Assembly (NCBI GenBank): GCA_001412365.1 | Contig: LKUE01000032.1 | Span: 1 to 11,748 of the forward strand | Origin: Desulfuromonas sp. SDB | Lineage (GTDB): Bacteria > SDB-A | Length of the DNA: 11,748 nt | Direction of reading: 5' to 3' | In this document: positions 4,017 to 11,748 of the stretch, one piece after another | How the letters are laid out: the number at the start of each line of letters is the position of its first letter | Numbering within the stretch: the first letter of the stretch is position 1 | Program-made: the position numbers and the translations under genes | The notes under the pieces: generated by a model | What the model was told of the DNA's origin: nothing | Seen by the model: the letters and a program-made list of their open reading frames with translations, nothing else | Databases searched by the model: none

Positions 4017-5261
4017 ATGAGAAAACGAATTATCAACAGCGGAGGGATTATTTCTCTTCAGCAGGGAGAAATACCCCGAAGAAAAAAGGAACTGAATTTA
4101 ACCGGCGTAATTAATCATAAAGATGTAATTGTGGAAGATGAAAAAATTTTAGATATTGTGGGTAGAAGTAAGCCGGATAAATCTGATTTTTTAGTGGATG
4201 CAAAAGGAATGTGGATAATGCCGGGGATAGTAGATGCCCACACTCATCCCATTTTTGGCGGTCAGCGTTATAATGAATTCTATTTACGGGCTCAGGGAAA
4301 GTCCTATCTTGAAATTGCTGAGCAGGGGGGGGGTATTCTCTCCACGGTTGAGCAAACCCGCTGCAGTAATCCGGAAATATTATATGAAAAGGGAGTCAGG
4401 ATAATTAATAAATTTTTGGAATTAGGGACCACTACTATTGAGGCAAAGTCAGGATATGGATTGAGTTTAGAGGATGAGGTTAAAATACTATCAGTTATCC
4501 GGGATTTAAATAAGAACACAAAAATGGATATCTTTCCCACCTTTCTAGGTGCACATTCTGTTCCCCGGGAATATAAGTCTAATCCACAAGATTATGTTAA
4601 ATTACTCTGCGATAGGATGATTCCTGAAATTGCCTCTTCCCGGTTAGCTGACTATTTAGATGTATTCTGTGAAAAGGGAGCTTTTAGCATTGAACAAACT
4701 GAGAAAATATTAAACTCGGCAAAACTGAACAAATTGAAGATCAGAATGCATGCTGAACAGCTTTCTCATAATGAAATTGTGCCGGTGGCGATGAAATACA
4801 GTCCAGTTAGCTTAGATCATGGAGTTATGGTTTCTCCTCAGGACATCCAGCTTCTGGCAAAGTCTTCTACCACAGTGATACTGCTTCCAGGCACGGAGAT
4901 AGTTTTAAATCAAACCACCTTTGCCCCTGCCCGGGAAATGATTGAGCAGGGATGTATTATTGCCCTGGCTACAGATTTTAATCCGGGCAGCTGTCCCATT
5001 CAGTCAATGTGGTTGATTGCCAGTTTTGCTGTGCTGAAACTGAATCTTACCATAGCTGAAATTTTAAATGCGATTACGGTTAATGCCGCTTATTCTTTGG
5101 GAATAGCAGATAAAGTTGGACAGATAAAACCAGGTTATCAAGCTGATATTATTTTCCTGGATATAGATAATCCTCTGGAAATACCTTACTGGATAGGAGC
5201 TAATCCGGTAAAAGCAGTGATGAAGAAAGGTCAAATAGTATATCAGAGGAATTATGGATAA
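4017..5261 (+). CDS. hutI: Imidazolonepropionase (histidine degradation)
   Basis: A 414-residue amidohydrolase, the usual HutI length. It hydrolyses 4-imidazolone-5-propanoate to N-formimino-L-glutamate, the third step of cytoplasmic histidine catabolism. Visible hallmarks are the metal-binding HxH in VDAHTHPIFGG (His75, His77), the family stretch EIAEQGGGI (99-107), TTIEAKSGYGL (139-149), FLGAHSVP, RMHAEQLS with His245, LDHG with His268, and ALATDFNPGS with Asp320. His75, His77, His245 and Asp320 fit the known metal ligands. The ATG at 4017 follows an in-frame TAG five codons upstream and gives the full N-terminal beta-sandwich, but has no clear Shine-Dalgarno. No hutH, hutU or hutF is in the window. 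The gene is instead the first of a tight four-gene unit, and its last 8 bases overlap the start of the next gene. Confidence 0.96.
   Translation: MRKRIINSGGIISLQQGEIPRRKKELNLTGVINHKDVIVEDEKILDIVGRSKPDKSDFLVDAKGMWIMPGIVDAHTHPIFGGQRYNEFYLRAQGKSYLEIAEQGGGILSTVEQTRCSNPEILYEKGVRIINKFLELGTTTIEAKSGYGLSLEDEVKILSVIRDLNKNTKMDIFPTFLGAHSVPREYKSNPQDYVKLLCDRMIPEIASSRLADYLDVFCEKGAFSIEQTEKILNSAKLNKLKIRMHAEQLSHNEIVPVAMKYSPVSLDHGVMVSPQDIQLLAKSSTTVILLPGTEIVLNQTTFAPAREMIEQGCIIALATDFNPGSCPIQSMWLIASFAVLKLNLTIAEILNAITVNAAYSLGIADKVGQIKPGYQADIIFLDIDNPLEIPYWIGANPVKAVMKKGQIVYQRNYG
4325..4333. repeat. G9 homopolymer inside hutI
   Basis: Nine consecutive G encode the end of Gln103 and the conserved Gly104-Gly105-Gly106. 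The glycines are a normal HutI feature, but unbroken GGG-GGG-GGT codon use makes a long slippage-prone tract. A slip would truncate hutI near codon 106 and could also affect the translationally coupled downstream genes. Confidence 0.65.
5245..5250 (+). promoter_or_regulatory. Ribosome binding site of the first TPR-like gene (inside hutI)
   Basis: AGAGGA lies within the last codons of hutI, a few bases before the ATG at 5254. It supports that start and hence the 8-base overlap with hutI, consistent with translational coupling. Confidence 0.65.
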
Positions 5262-7080
5262 AAATATAATTTTAGCAGATAAATTATTTGATCAAAAACG
5301 CTACTATGAAGCAGTTGCCCAATATGAAGGCAACAAGTTAAATCCGGTTCAACTGGAGAAACTGGCGGTATGCTATGCCAAAACTGATCAATTTTCCAAA
5401 GCCACTAAACTTACTTCTGAATTAATTGAAAATTACCGATTGTCCGATAAGGATGTTGAAACTATAGCCATGTATCTTGTACATTTTGAGTACTGCCCTG
5501 AATTAACCAGTCCCTTTCTGCTTACCTACACTGAGATTGCGGTAAGAAACAAGGTTTGGAATCAAGTAATAGATATGATAAAACAATGCATTAATGAAAA
5601 TTTAGATGATCCGGGTAAAGTTGTAGATTTTCTAAAATCAATTAAAAAACAAGCAAAAGTTGGAGATTACATTATTGATTTAATTGATAACCTTGTTTCT
5701 AGATACGATGCCAGCATGGGTTCCAATGAACAAATGCTTAAAGATGATTCTGCTCAATCTGAATTTTCACTGCCTGAGTTTTTTGAAAGTATTGGGTCCT
5801 ATGAAAACGCGGTTAATGCTTATATAAAAATTGGCAAGTGGGCGGTCAAGGTAAATAAACCCAATCTAATAAGAAAATCATTGGAAGCATTGGAACGGCT
5901 GGGTTATCAGGATAATTTAGAATATATTGATTTAAAAGAAAGCTTGGACAAAGCAGGTCCGGTTTTTGATCCGCATGAAATCATTAAAGGATTACCTGAA
6001 AAAACTGACGATATCCCCATGGAATTAGCTGACAATCACTTGAAATTAGCTTTACTTTTAAATATTAGAGGATTAGCTGATCAAACTAAAACTGAATTTT
6101 TGAATTCTGTTTTAGCTACACCCATTTTAGACCAGCAGGAATATGTGGAAAAGCTTTATGCTAAATTAAAGATGATTGATGCAGATTTAACTCAGGAGGT
6201 TATGAATTACATCGCTTCTACCGGACAATTTTCCTATGAACTGCAGGAAACCATAAAGAGTTTAAGCCACCCCACCCAAGGTTTGGATAGGTTTGTAAAA
6301 TCTGAGTCTGGAGATCAGACGGTCAGTGTTTCTCCAAATCAGAATTCTGATGGTCAGGATGTATATGATCTTGATTCATTGTTGAATCAGGAGGCTCAAC
6401 CGCCTTTTAATTTGCCGGAATCTAAAATTGATGAAACCGGGAAAACTACTGAGGAGCAAAAATTATTTTCTGAAGAATTCAAGATAGATATAGAACAGGA
6501 GGTTTTTCCGTCTAATTCGGATAGTGAATTTCAATCAACATCCAATATTCCCTTGGATGCCAAAGCCACATCAACAGAATCAGCCCCCATAAATACACCA
6601 CTTGAAACCGGAGAGGAAGATATCATAAGGTCAGAGAATGAATTTGATTTAAAACCAGCGGAAAACCTTTCTCCTGATTTTAAAACAGAAACTGAATCAA
6701 CAGATCATTTTCCCCTGGACTTAGAATCTTCCCAAACACCATCTGATTTCAGTTCAATTACAGCTGATAACACCGGGGAGCAGTTTAATAGTGATGGAAT
6801 TACCAGCGATTATTCAGAAGAAGATAAACATATAATGGAAGATTTAAAAATCCCCTTGGAAACTGATAAAGTAAGCCAGTATGAGAATTTAACTGATCAA
6901 AAGGATTTCATGGAAGAAGATGATATTGCCAGTGCTGAAGTTTCAAAAATAATGGAATCACAAAAAGAAAATGAAATCATTCCTTCAGAAGAACAGACAG
7001 ATCAATCTGCGTACTCAGGTGATCAGTCTGAAGGTGAACAAGAAAACCAACTAGATGAAATGAATATTGATTTTTTATAA
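5254..7080 (+). CDS. TPR-like cytoplasmic protein with long acidic C-terminal tail
   Basis: A 608-residue protein with no signal peptide or membrane segment visible. The first ~60 residues carry a TPR-type helical hairpin (LADKLFDQKRYYEAVAQYE, then LAVCYAKTDQFSKA). Further alpha-helical, TPR-like material continues to about 340, including FFESIGSYENAVNAYIKIG (176-194). From about 350 to the end the chain is low-complexity, rich in Glu, Asp, Ser and Thr, and probably disordered. It contains repeated short pieces of the type PL[DE] (IPLDAK, TPLETG, FPLDLE, IPLETD) and a YDLDSLL motif (371-377) that recurs in the larger TPR protein of the same unit. The start overlaps hutI by 8 bases and the next gene follows after 16. 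I cannot name it. A scaffold or partner of the neighbouring ExeA-type ATPase is an inference from context. Confidence 0.85.
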   Translation: MDKNIILADKLFDQKRYYEAVAQYEGNKLNPVQLEKLAVCYAKTDQFSKATKLTSELIENYRLSDKDVETIAMYLVHFEYCPELTSPFLLTYTEIAVRNKVWNQVIDMIKQCINENLDDPGKVVDFLKSIKKQAKVGDYIIDLIDNLVSRYDASMGSNEQMLKDDSAQSEFSLPEFFESIGSYENAVNAYIKIGKWAVKVNKPNLIRKSLEALERLGYQDNLEYIDLKESLDKAGPVFDPHEIIKGLPEKTDDIPMELADNHLKLALLLNIRGLADQTKTEFLNSVLATPILDQQEYVEKLYAKLKMIDADLTQEVMNYIASTGQFSYELQETIKSLSHPTQGLDRFVKSESGDQTVSVSPNQNSDGQDVYDLDSLLNQEAQPPFNLPESKIDETGKTTEEQKLFSEEFKIDIEQEVFPSNSDSEFQSTSNIPLDAKATSTESAPINTPLETGEEDIIRSENEFDLKPAENLSPDFKTETESTDHFPLDLESSQTPSDFSSITADNTGEQFNSDGITSDYSEEDKHIMEDLKIPLETDKVSQYENLTDQKDFMEEDDIASAEVSKIMESQKENEIIPSEEQTDQSAYSGDQSEGEQENQLDEMNIDFL

Positions 7081-7096: not shown

Positions 7097-7921
7097 ATGC
7101 ATTATAGAGAGTTCTATGGTTTAAATATGGATCCTTTCAATAATGTCCCTGATCTTAGATTTTATTATCCGGGAAATCTTTATTCTCGAATATATACCCG
7201 GTTGATGAGGGTTGCTCAGGAGGGGAGAGGATTGGCTGTCCTTACCGGGAAGGTGGGCACAGGAAAAACCACTATGGCCAGACAGCTTTTATACCTGCTC
7301 AGGGGGAATAGAACCCTGCAAACCGGGTTATTGGTATTAATGCACAGTGAGTTTGAACCGGGATGGCTGGTTAAAAGAATTGCGGGACTAATTGGAATAA
7401 ATGAAATCCCCAATGAAAAGACTGATGCATTGGCGGTGGTTACCAAGAAATTGCTAAAATATGATCAGGAGAATAAGCATACAGTTATTTTAATAGATGA
7501 AGCTAATAAAATGGTTAATCCCGATCAGCTGGAAGAAGTAAGAGGTTTTTTAAATCTGGAAAAGGGAGACCGGAGACTGGTAACTTTCATTTTATTTGGA
7601 ACCAGCGAATTATTGGATAATGTAAAAAGTAATCAATCACTATCCCAGCGGGTAATAATGAGACTAACTCTTAAATTAATGGACTTTGAATCGACAATCA
7701 AGTACATTAGACACAGACTAAGTGTTGCTGGTGCAAGAAGAGATGTTTTTGCCAAGGATTCATATAATTTGATTTATCGTTATACTAAAGGCAATCCAAG
7801 GGTAACCAATGCACTTTGCGATAATGTGCTTTTTGAAGGGGCATTGGCTAATTACCAGGTGATAACCCCAAGTTTAGTTGAAGAAGTCGCCATGATGTTA
7901 GGTTTTGAAAAAGAGGTATAA
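7097..7921 (+). CDS. ExeA/MshM-type AAA+ ATPase, short form
   Basis: A 274-residue ATPase of the ExeA (GspA)/MshM family. The family N-terminus is present (FYGLNMDPFNNVPDLRFYYP), followed by Walker A GKVGTGKT (51-58), Walker B VILIDEA (130-136), a sensor-1 region ILFGTSEL (165-172), a likely arginine finger in LSQR (Arg185), and the sensor-2 stretch GNPRVTNALCDN (232-243). All catalytic positions look intact. ExeA assembles the type II secretion secretin together with ExeB and has a C-terminal peptidoglycan-binding region. MshM serves the MSHA pilus. This protein ends straight after the AAA+ module, so it has neither a peptidoglycan-binding tail nor a membrane anchor. It is flanked on both sides by TPR/acidic proteins in one unit (gaps of 16 and 7 bases), reminiscent of the mshM-mshN pair. 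The actual substrate or complex is unknown. Confidence 0.9.
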   Translation: MHYREFYGLNMDPFNNVPDLRFYYPGNLYSRIYTRLMRVAQEGRGLAVLTGKVGTGKTTMARQLLYLLRGNRTLQTGLLVLMHSEFEPGWLVKRIAGLIGINEIPNEKTDALAVVTKKLLKYDQENKHTVILIDEANKMVNPDQLEEVRGFLNLEKGDRRLVTFILFGTSELLDNVKSNQSLSQRVIMRLTLKLMDFESTIKYIRHRLSVAGARRDVFAKDSYNLIYRYTKGNPRVTNALCDNVLFEGALANYQVITPSLVEEVAMMLGFEKEV

Positions 7922-7928
7922 TTAACAA

Positions 7929-10202
7929 ATGCCACTTTCCAGCGGAGAAAAAAGAAGATTAATTAATCAAGCCCGGGATTATATCAGATCCAAGGATTAC
8001 CAGGATGCTATCCGTATTTACCGCCAGATATTGGAAAGTGGACAGGAGCCGGAGGTATACCAGCAATTAGGTGATGTTTACGAAAGAATTAATGACCGTG
8101 ATAATTCCATAGAAGCTTTCCGCCATTCAGCAAATTTGTATATGGATGAGGAGATGTGGAGAGAGGCGTTGGGAGTTTACCGGAGATTGTCCAGAATAAT
8201 GAAGGAAGACAGTGCTGATTTGGGCTGGGATCTTGCCAATTTGTATTTAAAAATGAACATGGAAGTTGAGGCGATCAGAGAGTTAACCAATTTTGGCGAC
8301 AAGAAAATGAATGAAAACGATCTTCAGGAAGCATTTAAGGCTTTTGATAAGGTAATGGAGTTAGAACCTGAAAATGTTTTCATAAGAATTAAGTATGCGG
8401 ATTTGTTGGAACAAAAGGGACAATTTAATAAAGCTATGGATAATTATCAAATTGTCAAAAATGCCTTTGAGAAAAAAGGGGACCAGACAAAAATTGAAGA
8501 ATTCCAAGCTAGAATTGATATTTTAAAATCAAAGATAAAGGAAATCACTCCTCAGGTTAAAACCAAAGAAACCAAGAAAGGTAAACCTGATTTTGGTTTC
8601 ATGCTTGGTGAATTTGTTGAAGAAACCGGACAAAAAGAAACTGCTTCCGCCAGTGAAGATAATTATGTGGAACAGAAGACTGCCCCCCCTGAATCTATAA
8701 CCCCTGAACCACCTCCTGAATCTGAACAGACAAGTTCCTATGTCGAAGTTGACTTGAAAACAGAAGAATTGAAGGAGTTGCCTGCGTTGAATAAGCTGGG
8801 CACCGAAGGTGATGAAGAAATTCTGGAAAGCAAGGAAGAACCAACCCCTGAAATATCCGCGGAACAAGCTGAACCAGAAGTGTCCGAACCAGTTGATCAG
8901 GTTCCTCAGCAAGATGAATTCCCCCTGGGAGAAATAATTGACGAGGTAGCTGAAGAAATGGCTGAAGCCACTCCTGGAGCTAAACCGGAAAAGGTCTCCC
9001 CAAAAGCAGAGGAATCTACTGGATTTTTTGAAGGATTGGATTTGCAGGATCTTCTTTCCGGAGTATCTGAACAGAAATCTGAAGAATCTGAACAACCAGA
9101 TTTTTCAATTACGGAAGATAAGAAAAAGCAGGTGGATAAAAAGATTAAAAGCCGCAAATCCCACACCGTGTCCATGTCCAATATTGATGAAACTATCTCT
9201 CTGGAAGGATTGCTAAAGGGGGATGTAGATAGCTGGAGCGATGTCGCTTCGGAGTTAGCTAAGGAATTACTAGATGATAAAGGGGTTGATGAATTTAAAG
9301 CCACCCAGGATAAGATTTTAACTGAAAGTACAACCTGGGAGGAATTTGAAGAACAAGCCCAATTGCTGCTTTCGGTGGGGGAAACCGAGGAGGCAATTGA
9401 TTATCTTTACCAGGCTGCAGATGGATATTATGATGAGAATGTTTTAGACAAGTCCTGGCAGTTGTACAATCAGATAGTGGATCTAAGACCATTTGAAATA
9501 CGACCCCGGCAGAAAATGGTTCAAATTGCTCTTAAACTCGAAGATACTGAAAAAGCAACTACTGCCTACCTAAGTCTCTATGATTGCCAGAAGAGAAGAG
9601 GTGCATTTATTGATGCCGAAGAGACCCTTGGCAAATTAAGGAATATTGCTCCCAATCATCCCGGGGTTATTGCCAGAGATCATCCTCATACTGAGAAAAC
9701 CACTCCGGAAGGGCAGGCTGTAGATCTTTCCACACTGCTGGAAATGGAAACTCTTCAGGAAAAAATCGGAAATAGAAGTATGAATTCATTAGTTGATGAA
9801 TTTAAAGAAGAGGTGTATCAAAGTATCAGTTCCAGTGAACGAGAAAATTATGATGCTCATTATGACCTGGGAATAACTTTCAAGGAGATGGGTTTATACG
9901 ATGAAGCTATTGAAGAATTCACCATAGCCACTAAATCCAAGAAATCATTTTTAAAATCCATGGAGATGATAGCTAATTGCCTTTTTGATTTGGGTAAAAA
10001 AGATGCCGCAGTTTCCCAGCTGGAGGAAGTAATTAACAATCACGATTACCAGGAATCTGAATTAGTGGGTATAAGATATTTGCTGGGAACAATTTATGAA
10101 AGCAGAGGAAATTCATCGGAAGCAAAAAATCAATACATAAAGGTATATCAGAGTTATCCTGATTTTGCGGATATAAAGGAAAAAGTAAAAAAATTTAAAT
10201 AG
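7929..10202 (+). CDS. Large TPR protein with acidic disordered linker
   Basis: A 757-residue protein with no signal peptide or membrane span. Residues 10-205 hold several TPR repeats (ARDYIRSKDYQDAIRIYRQIL, VYQQLGDVYERINDRDNSIEAF, and LADLL-type helices ending near 180). About 210-410 is a Glu/Pro/Ser-rich, probably disordered linker. TPR-like helices return at about 467-580 (LLSVGETEEAIDYLYQA), and classic repeats close the protein (AHYDLGITFKEMGLYDEAIEEF at 643-664, then 676-745). A D/S-L-x-x-L-L motif recurs at 371-376, 424-429 and 599-604. The layout resembles cytoplasmic TPR hubs such as the FimV cytoplasmic part, but I see no LysM or membrane anchor. The start ATG lies 7 bases after the ATPase stop; AAGAGG at 7911-7916 is 12 bases away, a rather long spacing. 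It is the last gene of the rightward unit and its stop touches the rarA stop. Confidence 0.88.
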   Translation: MPLSSGEKRRLINQARDYIRSKDYQDAIRIYRQILESGQEPEVYQQLGDVYERINDRDNSIEAFRHSANLYMDEEMWREALGVYRRLSRIMKEDSADLGWDLANLYLKMNMEVEAIRELTNFGDKKMNENDLQEAFKAFDKVMELEPENVFIRIKYADLLEQKGQFNKAMDNYQIVKNAFEKKGDQTKIEEFQARIDILKSKIKEITPQVKTKETKKGKPDFGFMLGEFVEETGQKETASASEDNYVEQKTAPPESITPEPPPESEQTSSYVEVDLKTEELKELPALNKLGTEGDEEILESKEEPTPEISAEQAEPEVSEPVDQVPQQDEFPLGEIIDEVAEEMAEATPGAKPEKVSPKAEESTGFFEGLDLQDLLSGVSEQKSEESEQPDFSITEDKKKQVDKKIKSRKSHTVSMSNIDETISLEGLLKGDVDSWSDVASELAKELLDDKGVDEFKATQDKILTESTTWEEFEEQAQLLLSVGETEEAIDYLYQAADGYYDENVLDKSWQLYNQIVDLRPFEIRPRQKMVQIALKLEDTEKATTAYLSLYDCQKRRGAFIDAEETLGKLRNIAPNHPGVIARDHPHTEKTTPEGQAVDLSTLLEMETLQEKIGNRSMNSLVDEFKEEVYQSISSSERENYDAHYDLGITFKEMGLYDEAIEEFTIATKSKKSFLKSMEMIANCLFDLGKKDAAVSQLEEVINNHDYQESELVGIRYLLGTIYESRGNSSEAKNQYIKVYQSYPDFADIKEKVKKFK

Positions 10203-10228
10203 TTAATTTTTGATATTTCTTTTTTTTT
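10189..10228. terminator. Weak AT-only hairpin plus T9 run at the convergent gene junction
   Basis: AAAAATT (10189-10195) can pair with AATTTTT (10205-10211) across a 9-base loop, and nine T follow at 10220-10228 on the plus strand. It spans the stop codons of the second TPR gene and rarA. The stem has no G-C pairs, so it would be a poor intrinsic terminator. There is no other candidate at the junction. Confidence 0.25.
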
Positions 10229-11474
10229 GCTCCCACCATTTCAATCTTTTATTTATCTCTCGTTCAAATCCCCTGGTTTGGGGATGGTAGAAAGTAAACT
10301 CAGATAATTGCGGGGGTAAAGTTGTCTGTCCTGAAAATGCATGAGGATAATCATGATCGTATTTGTACCCGCGTCCATGTTTTAACTGTTGGGCTAATTT
10401 GGTCGGTGCATTCCGCAGATGAAGGGGAACAGGAATTGATCCTGTTTTTTTCACCTCTTGCTGAACCCTGTCCCAGGCTTGATAAATACTGTTTGATTTA
10501 GGTGAAACTGCCAGATAAATTGCCGCTTGTACCAGTAATAACTCGGCTTCGGGCATGCCTACCACATCAAAAGCACTGCGAGCCTGAGTTACCTGTACTA
10601 AAGCCAGAGGATCAGCTAAGCCAATGTCCTCACTGGCTATTCGAATCATCCTTCTGAATATATAGGCAGGATCAGCACCTCCCATTATCATCCTGGCGAG
10701 ATAGTACAGTGCCCCCTGGGGATCGCTGGCTCGGACACTTTTATGAAAAGCGCTGATTAAATCATAAAAATAATCACCTTGTTTATCGTAGCTGAATATT
10801 TTTTTTGAAAAATCAATTTTATCTATATTTTCAATATTTTGTATTATTGCTTCAAAGAAATTCAATGCTCTCCGGGCATCTCCTTCTGAATAGGAGATTA
10901 TATGAGGAAATATACTGGTAATCTGTTTAATCTGATTTTTATCAAGATGTTTAAAATACTGTGCTGACTGGCAATAATGTAACCCCTGGTGAAGAATTTT
11001 TTCAATTGCCTTATCCGGTAAGGGTTCTAGGACAAAAAGCCTCAGCCTGGACATCAGGGGAGAATTAAGATAAAAGGACGGGTTTTCAGTAGTAGCTCCA
11101 ATTAAAATAATTTTTCCCTGTTCAACGTAGGGAAGAAGAACGTCCTGCTGTGATTTTGAAAAGCGGTGAATTTCATCTAAAAACAAATAGGAACCAGGTG
11201 AGGATATTAAATTATGCCCATCTCCGATTTCTCTAATTCTGTTTACCCCTATTTTAACTGCGCTTTCCTTAAAATGAGGAATGCTTGGGCTGTACTGAAA
11301 AATTAAATTAGCCAGGGTTGTTTTCCCTGATCCAGGAGGTCCCCACAATAGTAAACTTGGAAAATTTTTGTGATTGAAATAACTGTGTAGTTCTGTTCCG
11401 GGAGCAAGGATTTTTTCCTGCCCGAAAAATTCTTTTAAGTCAACCGGACGTAATGCATCGGCAAGCGGTTTCAA
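10203..11474 (-). CDS. rarA: Replication-associated recombination protein A (AAA+ ATPase)
   Basis: RarA (MgsA) is a clamp-loader-like AAA+ ATPase that acts at stalled replication forks. Taking the TTG at 11472-11474 as start gives 423 residues, near the family norm, and an N-terminus (M)KPLADALRPVDLKEFFGQ that fits RarA proteins. Walker A GPPGSGKTT is at 45-53, Walker B LFLDEIHRF from 97 with Asp100-Glu101, sensor 1 GATTENPSF from 126, the arginine finger in SRLR (142-145) and sensor 2 GDARR (198-202). The oligomerisation and C-terminal region is clear: SAFHKSVRASDPQ, MIMGGADP, ASEDIGLADP, PVPLHLRNAPT and FYHPQTRGFE. An upstream TTG at 11507 would add 11 residues but has no ribosome binding site, whereas the chosen one has GGAGG. 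It is convergent with the TPR operon with zero bases between the stop codons. Confidence 0.95.
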   Translation of the reverse strand: MKPLADALRPVDLKEFFGQEKILAPGTELHSYFNHKNFPSLLLWGPPGSGKTTLANLIFQYSPSIPHFKESAVKIGVNRIREIGDGHNLISSPGSYLFLDEIHRFSKSQQDVLLPYVEQGKIILIGATTENPSFYLNSPLMSRLRLFVLEPLPDKAIEKILHQGLHYCQSAQYFKHLDKNQIKQITSIFPHIISYSEGDARRALNFFEAIIQNIENIDKIDFSKKIFSYDKQGDYFYDLISAFHKSVRASDPQGALYYLARMIMGGADPAYIFRRMIRIASEDIGLADPLALVQVTQARSAFDVVGMPEAELLLVQAAIYLAVSPKSNSIYQAWDRVQQEVKKTGSIPVPLHLRNAPTKLAQQLKHGRGYKYDHDYPHAFSGQTTLPPQLSEFTFYHPQTRGFEREINKRLKWWEQKKRNIKN

Positions 11475-11483: not shown

Positions 11484-11562
11484 GTCATTTATATTGTTAT
11501 AGAACAATGATAAATAATAATTATTTAAATTTGAAGTTTTTTAAATAACTTTCATAATTTTA

Positions 11563-11676: not shown

Positions 11677-11748
11677 TTGACATAATTGGGTGGGTTGATT
11701 AAAGATAAAAATGGGTCAAAGTGGGTCAAAAAAGGTATAAAAATGGGT
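11677..11748 (+). promoter_or_regulatory. Promoter with MraZ-type TGGGT repeats (probable start of mraZ/dcw cluster)
   Basis: MraZ autoregulates the division/cell-wall cluster by binding direct TGGGN repeats with 5-base spacers, a 10-bp period. Here TGGGT occurs at 11712 and 11722, exactly 10 bases apart and each followed by CAAA. A degenerate AAGGT follows in register at 11732, and a further TGGGT lies at 11744 (2 bases out of register). Upstream is a perfect TTGACA (11677-11682); 17 bases on is a weak TAAAGA (11700-11705). Alternatively TATAAA at 11736-11741 is the -10 and the repeats cover its -35. Two overlapping TGGGT copies at 11687-11695 lie within the upstream spacer. No coding frame follows before the window ends. 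Confidence 0.6.

Follow-up and report, generated by a model that had tools for sequence, protein, structure and literature searches.

What do the short direct repeats at the right edge of this contig regulate, and which gene lies beyond them? The window, by which we mean the whole stretch of 11,748 nucleotides that was analysed, is the entire contig C32 of a draft genome of Desulfuromonas sp. SDB in 433 contigs, and its last five letters are one of the repeats. A preliminary description of this DNA had proposed that the repeats bind MraZ and that mraZ and the dcw cluster would be found just past the edge.

Direct repeats with a 10-bp period

A scan of the last kilobase of the window located exact TGGGT sequences at 11687, 11691, 11712, 11722 and 11744. 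A 9-base match, TGGGTCAAA, is common to those at 11712 and 11722, which are spaced by exactly 10 bp, and the earlier claim of two exact units with this period is borne out. As a null model, the 235 bp preceding the mraZ start were shuffled 20,000 times with dinucleotide composition preserved. The arrangement TGGGTCAAA-N-TGGGTCAAA was present in none of the shuffles, a 10-bp repeat of any 9-mer containing four or more G/C in one, and TGGGT-N5-TGGGT in 42. The sequence TGGGTNNNAGTGGGT has a single occurrence in the 3.14-Mb assembly, at the right edge of the window.

Unit 1 (TGGGT, 11712-11716, plus strand, as are all units) lies at the predicted transcription start, and unit 2 (AAAG-TGGGT, 11722-11726) follows exactly 10 bp later. 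Unit 3 (AAGGT, 11732-11736) is degenerate and in register, as had been described, with the correction that it contains the mraZ ribosome-binding site. The nearby fourth copy of the preliminary description exists as TGGGT at 11744-11748, and it turns out to be the mraZ start codon together with the Gly2 codon (A-TGGGT), 2 bp off register. The proposal that this is a variant box, its last copy being displaced, therefore stands as far as the 2-bp shift is concerned, and the box is better described as one whose last two units are a ribosome-binding site and a start codon. With two exact units, a degenerate one in register and one 2 bp off, the array has the direct TGGG/GTGK repeats, the 10-bp period and the minimum of three units by which an MraZ box is recognised.

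A further copy, TGGGTGGGT at 11687-11695 (plus strand), is located in the spacer of the predicted promoter between the −35 and −10 elements, outside the 10-bp register. An upstream half-box was one reading of this copy, which we dropped since the three relatives examined lack it; judged from these alignments it is probably not part of the core MraZ box. In this species it might give MraZ one more contact, or it may have arisen by chance.

mraZ and the dcw cluster across the contig end

Only one mraZ is encoded in the genome, and it lies right at one end of contig C42. The last 19 bp of the window, AAAAGGTATAAAAATGGGT, are identical to the first 19 of C42 when that contig is reversed, and a search of the whole assembly found this 19-mer at those two contig ends only. 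The putative join of C32 and C42 was made through the overlap and the synteny of relatives. The comparison set comprised the window's own genome and three other species of its phylum; NCBI lists one of these under candidate division WOR-3. Besides the overlap, synteny supports the join, in that each of the three relatives has rarA and mraZ side by side and divergently oriented on an uninterrupted contig, with rsmH further on.

In the joined sequence mraZ starts at the ATG at 11743, such that its first two codons (ATG GGT, 11743-11748, plus strand) are in the window and the remainder of the gene is on C42. The 142-aa product scores 96.4 bits against the MraZ Pfam model (PF02381), which matches two stretches, each with a D-x-K-G-R-type loop, and residues D12, K14-R16 and D84-R88 of these motifs are invariant across the four proteins of the phylum. 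Relatives in the PDB include 1n0e and 9qlr; a literature search retrieved no publication for the recent entries 9qlr, 9r4j and 9sx6.

The gene order on C42 is mraZ, a STAS-domain gene, rsmH, a small gene at the ftsL position, ftsI, murE and murF, which is the dcw order (mraZ, rsmH, ftsL, ftsI, murE, murF) with the STAS gene inserted. Pfam matches were obtained for rsmH, a PBP transpeptidase and two Mur ligases; the gene at the ftsL position had no significant Pfam match and is named by its place only. The overlap and the contiguous synteny of the relatives thus put the box directly upstream of an mraZ that heads a dcw cluster. The gene that had been predicted just past the edge already begins within the window, and the predicted cluster, from rsmH to murF, is found on C42. 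The proposal could have failed if the next gene had been another one or the repeats had been unconserved; mraZ is next, and the repeats are kept in three relatives. An open reading frame of about 140-150 codons followed by rsmH had also been expected. The length agrees, and the STAS gene, which had not been foreseen, precedes rsmH.

The STAS protein has 108 aa (L003:5689-6015, minus strand; PF13466, E 7.9e-8). In the three relatives there is either a similar gene, recognised by its likeness to the protein of the window's own genome, or a gap of matching size between mraZ and rsmH. Most other surveyed genomes in which rsmH was located have it directly after mraZ. The STAS protein is possibly an anti-sigma-antagonist-like part of the dcw operon.

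Predicted promoter and conservation in the phylum

The gene divergent from mraZ, here and in the three relatives, is rarA/mgsA (10203-11474, minus strand; MgsA_C Pfam, E 5.9e-65). The list of open reading frames starts it with a TTG at 11507, and GGAGGT sits 4 nt upstream of another TTG at 11474. This ribosome-binding sequence and the N-termini of the relatives (M..PLAD.IRP) suggest 11474 as the real start. Elsewhere in the window, inspection by eye revealed two long TPR-like proteins with acidic low-complexity stretches (5254-7080 and 7929-10202), an ExeA-like AAA ATPase between them (7097-7921) and a PilT-like ATPase (166-1275); the ExeA-like ATPase flanked by TPR-like proteins, along with the PilT-like ATPase, suggests a pilus or secretion locus.

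Good alignment of the four rarA-mraZ regions is confined to about their last 70 bases, the rest of the intergenic region having diverged. The aligned order is CTTGACA, an A/T-rich −10 region and then the repeats. The −35 element TTGACA of the predicted mraZ promoter (11677-11682, plus strand), which the preliminary description had noted beside the repeats in the region divergent from rarA, is retained in all four genomes as part of an identical CTTGACA. The likely −10 element is TAAAGA (11700-11705, plus strand), 17 nt after TTGACA. It was read from the sequence and is weak, below the threshold of a consensus scan; its equivalents in the relatives are TTTAAT or TAAAAT, 16-17 nt after TTGACA. 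The box is thus set against a conserved −35 element and −10-like hexamers in place, and the start site is a predicted one.

Counting the A of ATG as 0, the units of the relatives are TGGGW at −29, TGGGT at −19, GGGGT at −9 and TGGGT at +1, with an exact 10-bp period. The window's own genome has units at −31 and −21, AAGGT at −11 and TGGGT at +1, and a 2-bp insertion shifts the last unit out of register. Unit 3 with its ribosome-binding site reads AAAAGGT here and AAAAAGGGGT in the relatives (AAGGGGT, with GGGGT exactly in register). Each relative genome has a single match to the three-unit pattern, located at mraZ; the reversed-pattern control gave 0 matches. The arrangement is also common outside the phylum: in a survey of 109 mraZ genes, most of which belong to other families and whose start codons were chosen by rule, 60 had at least three in-register TGG units in the 70 bp upstream, compared to 0.24 expected from shuffles. 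Five loci with failed start picks were dropped from this survey, and some GTG starts (G380) are uncertain. Judged on sequence, the repeats at 11712-11748 are almost certainly an MraZ operator.

Proposed control of the operon

We propose that a sigma-70-type promoter, with TTGACA at 11677 and a weak −10 at about 11700, would start transcription near 11712. The TGGGT repeats begin there and would cover the short leader. MraZ, the product of the first gene, would bind them along one face of the DNA and block RNA polymerase at or just after initiation, so that the operon mraZ-STAS-rsmH-ftsL?-ftsI-murE-murF would be held at a set level by its own MraZ. The array would extend across the ribosome-binding site and start codon in this phylum, and for this reason codon 2 (Gly, GGT) would probably be part of the operator. 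Given the degeneracy of unit 3 and the 2-bp shift of unit 4 in the window's own genome, the functional box there may have two or three units only. The explanation as a whole, a dcw promoter-operator at which MraZ represses its own operon by binding TGGGT repeats that reach the translation start, is in our view very likely correct.

Alternative readings

Short repeats might arise by chance in AT-rich intergenic DNA or belong to another regulator, and the genome does contain four copies of TGGGT-N5-TGGGT, a number that the reversed-pattern control equals. Two of the three matches away from mraZ are within long open frames and the third adjoins the end of one. A wider MraZ regulon was not detected with this pattern, and a search of the four genomes with three mismatches gave little beyond mraZ above the control level. 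The full unit is absent from all shuffles and recurs at mraZ across families, and its retention at mraZ in every relative refutes this explanation, which we consider extremely improbable. The main rival on the direction of control accepts the same box and lets MraZ activate the operon. According to PMC8475190, MraZ overexpression was linked with raised FtsZ levels in M. gallisepticum, and the direction of control is therefore not universal. Against activation here, the first repeat coincides with the predicted start site, past the likely −10 element, and the array covers the leader, a placement that fits blocking better than recruitment; repression has been seen in E. coli and in M. genitalium, where MraZ represses the cluster (PMC8475190). 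We regard activation as unlikely and repression by MraZ as the preferred direction.

The role of the start-codon unit is more finely balanced. It may lie outside the operator, ATGGGT being the product of chance and shared descent and Gly2 having a role in the protein, and to this we give not quite an even chance. In the window's own genome the unit misses the register by 2 bp, which weakens a start-codon operator there, and Gly2 is limited to one phylum of related species, so that the four sequences may amount to scarcely more than a single event. Yet the three relatives keep all four units at an exact 10-bp period, and Gly2 sets the MraZ proteins of all four species apart from the other 105 in the survey, which lack it. 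All four genomes encode it as GGT, the sole identical one among ten shared glycine codons, and only 20 of 142 third codon positions are invariant. The box is in start-codon register in five of nine genes whose second codon starts with G and in nine of 100 others (Fisher p 0.0016, a value that ignores kinship, as three of the five belong to one genus and one start, in G380, is uncertain). These data provide moderate evidence that the operator would include the start codon in this lineage. The fuller proposal is that the phylum's operator and the translation start of mraZ are one structure, with repeat 3 as the ribosome-binding site, repeat 4 as the start codon and codon 2, and Gly2 kept by DNA-level selection for the operator; we hold it tentatively, as somewhat short of evenly probable.

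In another lineage, at L106 (G286) and L124 (G149), the mraZ start (ATGGAACAAA or GTGGAACAAA) is in 10-bp register with upstream GTGGA units, possibly an independent case of a box over a start codon. G149, G286 and possibly G380 bring the start codon into register through a different second codon, Glu, and the arrangement may for that reason have arisen more than once.

Discussion

The locus is largely an ordinary, known system that departs a little from others of its kind at the start codon. It would extend the control of cell division by MraZ to a scarcely sampled candidate phylum. A short repeat at a contig end correctly predicted the neighbouring gene cluster and bridged two draft contigs. 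Where operator, ribosome-binding site and start codon overlap, a regulatory site may dictate the second residue of a protein, a small case that can be tested.

The E. coli MraZ operator at Pmra reportedly consists of TGGGN repeats with 5-nt spacers. The box described here resembles it in having TGGG direct repeats that recur every 10 bp, past the likely −10 element and before mraZ as the first dcw gene, and differs in that the repeats reach the ribosome-binding site and start codon and that a STAS gene follows mraZ. The mycoplasma site, given as (AAAGTGKN3)3 where Fisunov et al., 2016 is quoted in PMC5282649, shares the 10-bp period and the AAAGTGG core, unit 2 here being AAAGTGGGT, whereas the last unit coincides with the start codon only in the present case. 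The PmraBc promoter of B. cenocepacia has four 7-nt repeats separated by 3 nt, which lie past the −10 element and over the transcription start site (PMC7761207); their placement is equated there with that in E. coli, where MraZ represses. Four repeats and the 10-bp period are common to both, and so would be the position downstream of −10 and the overlap with a start site, which are predicted in our case. In B. cenocepacia 100 bp separate the start site from the downstream mraZ, in contrast to a predicted leader of about 30 nt here, and it is because of this short leader that the box reaches the gene. Since our mraZ survey agrees with the published mycoplasma and B. cenocepacia sites, the box is of a known kind.
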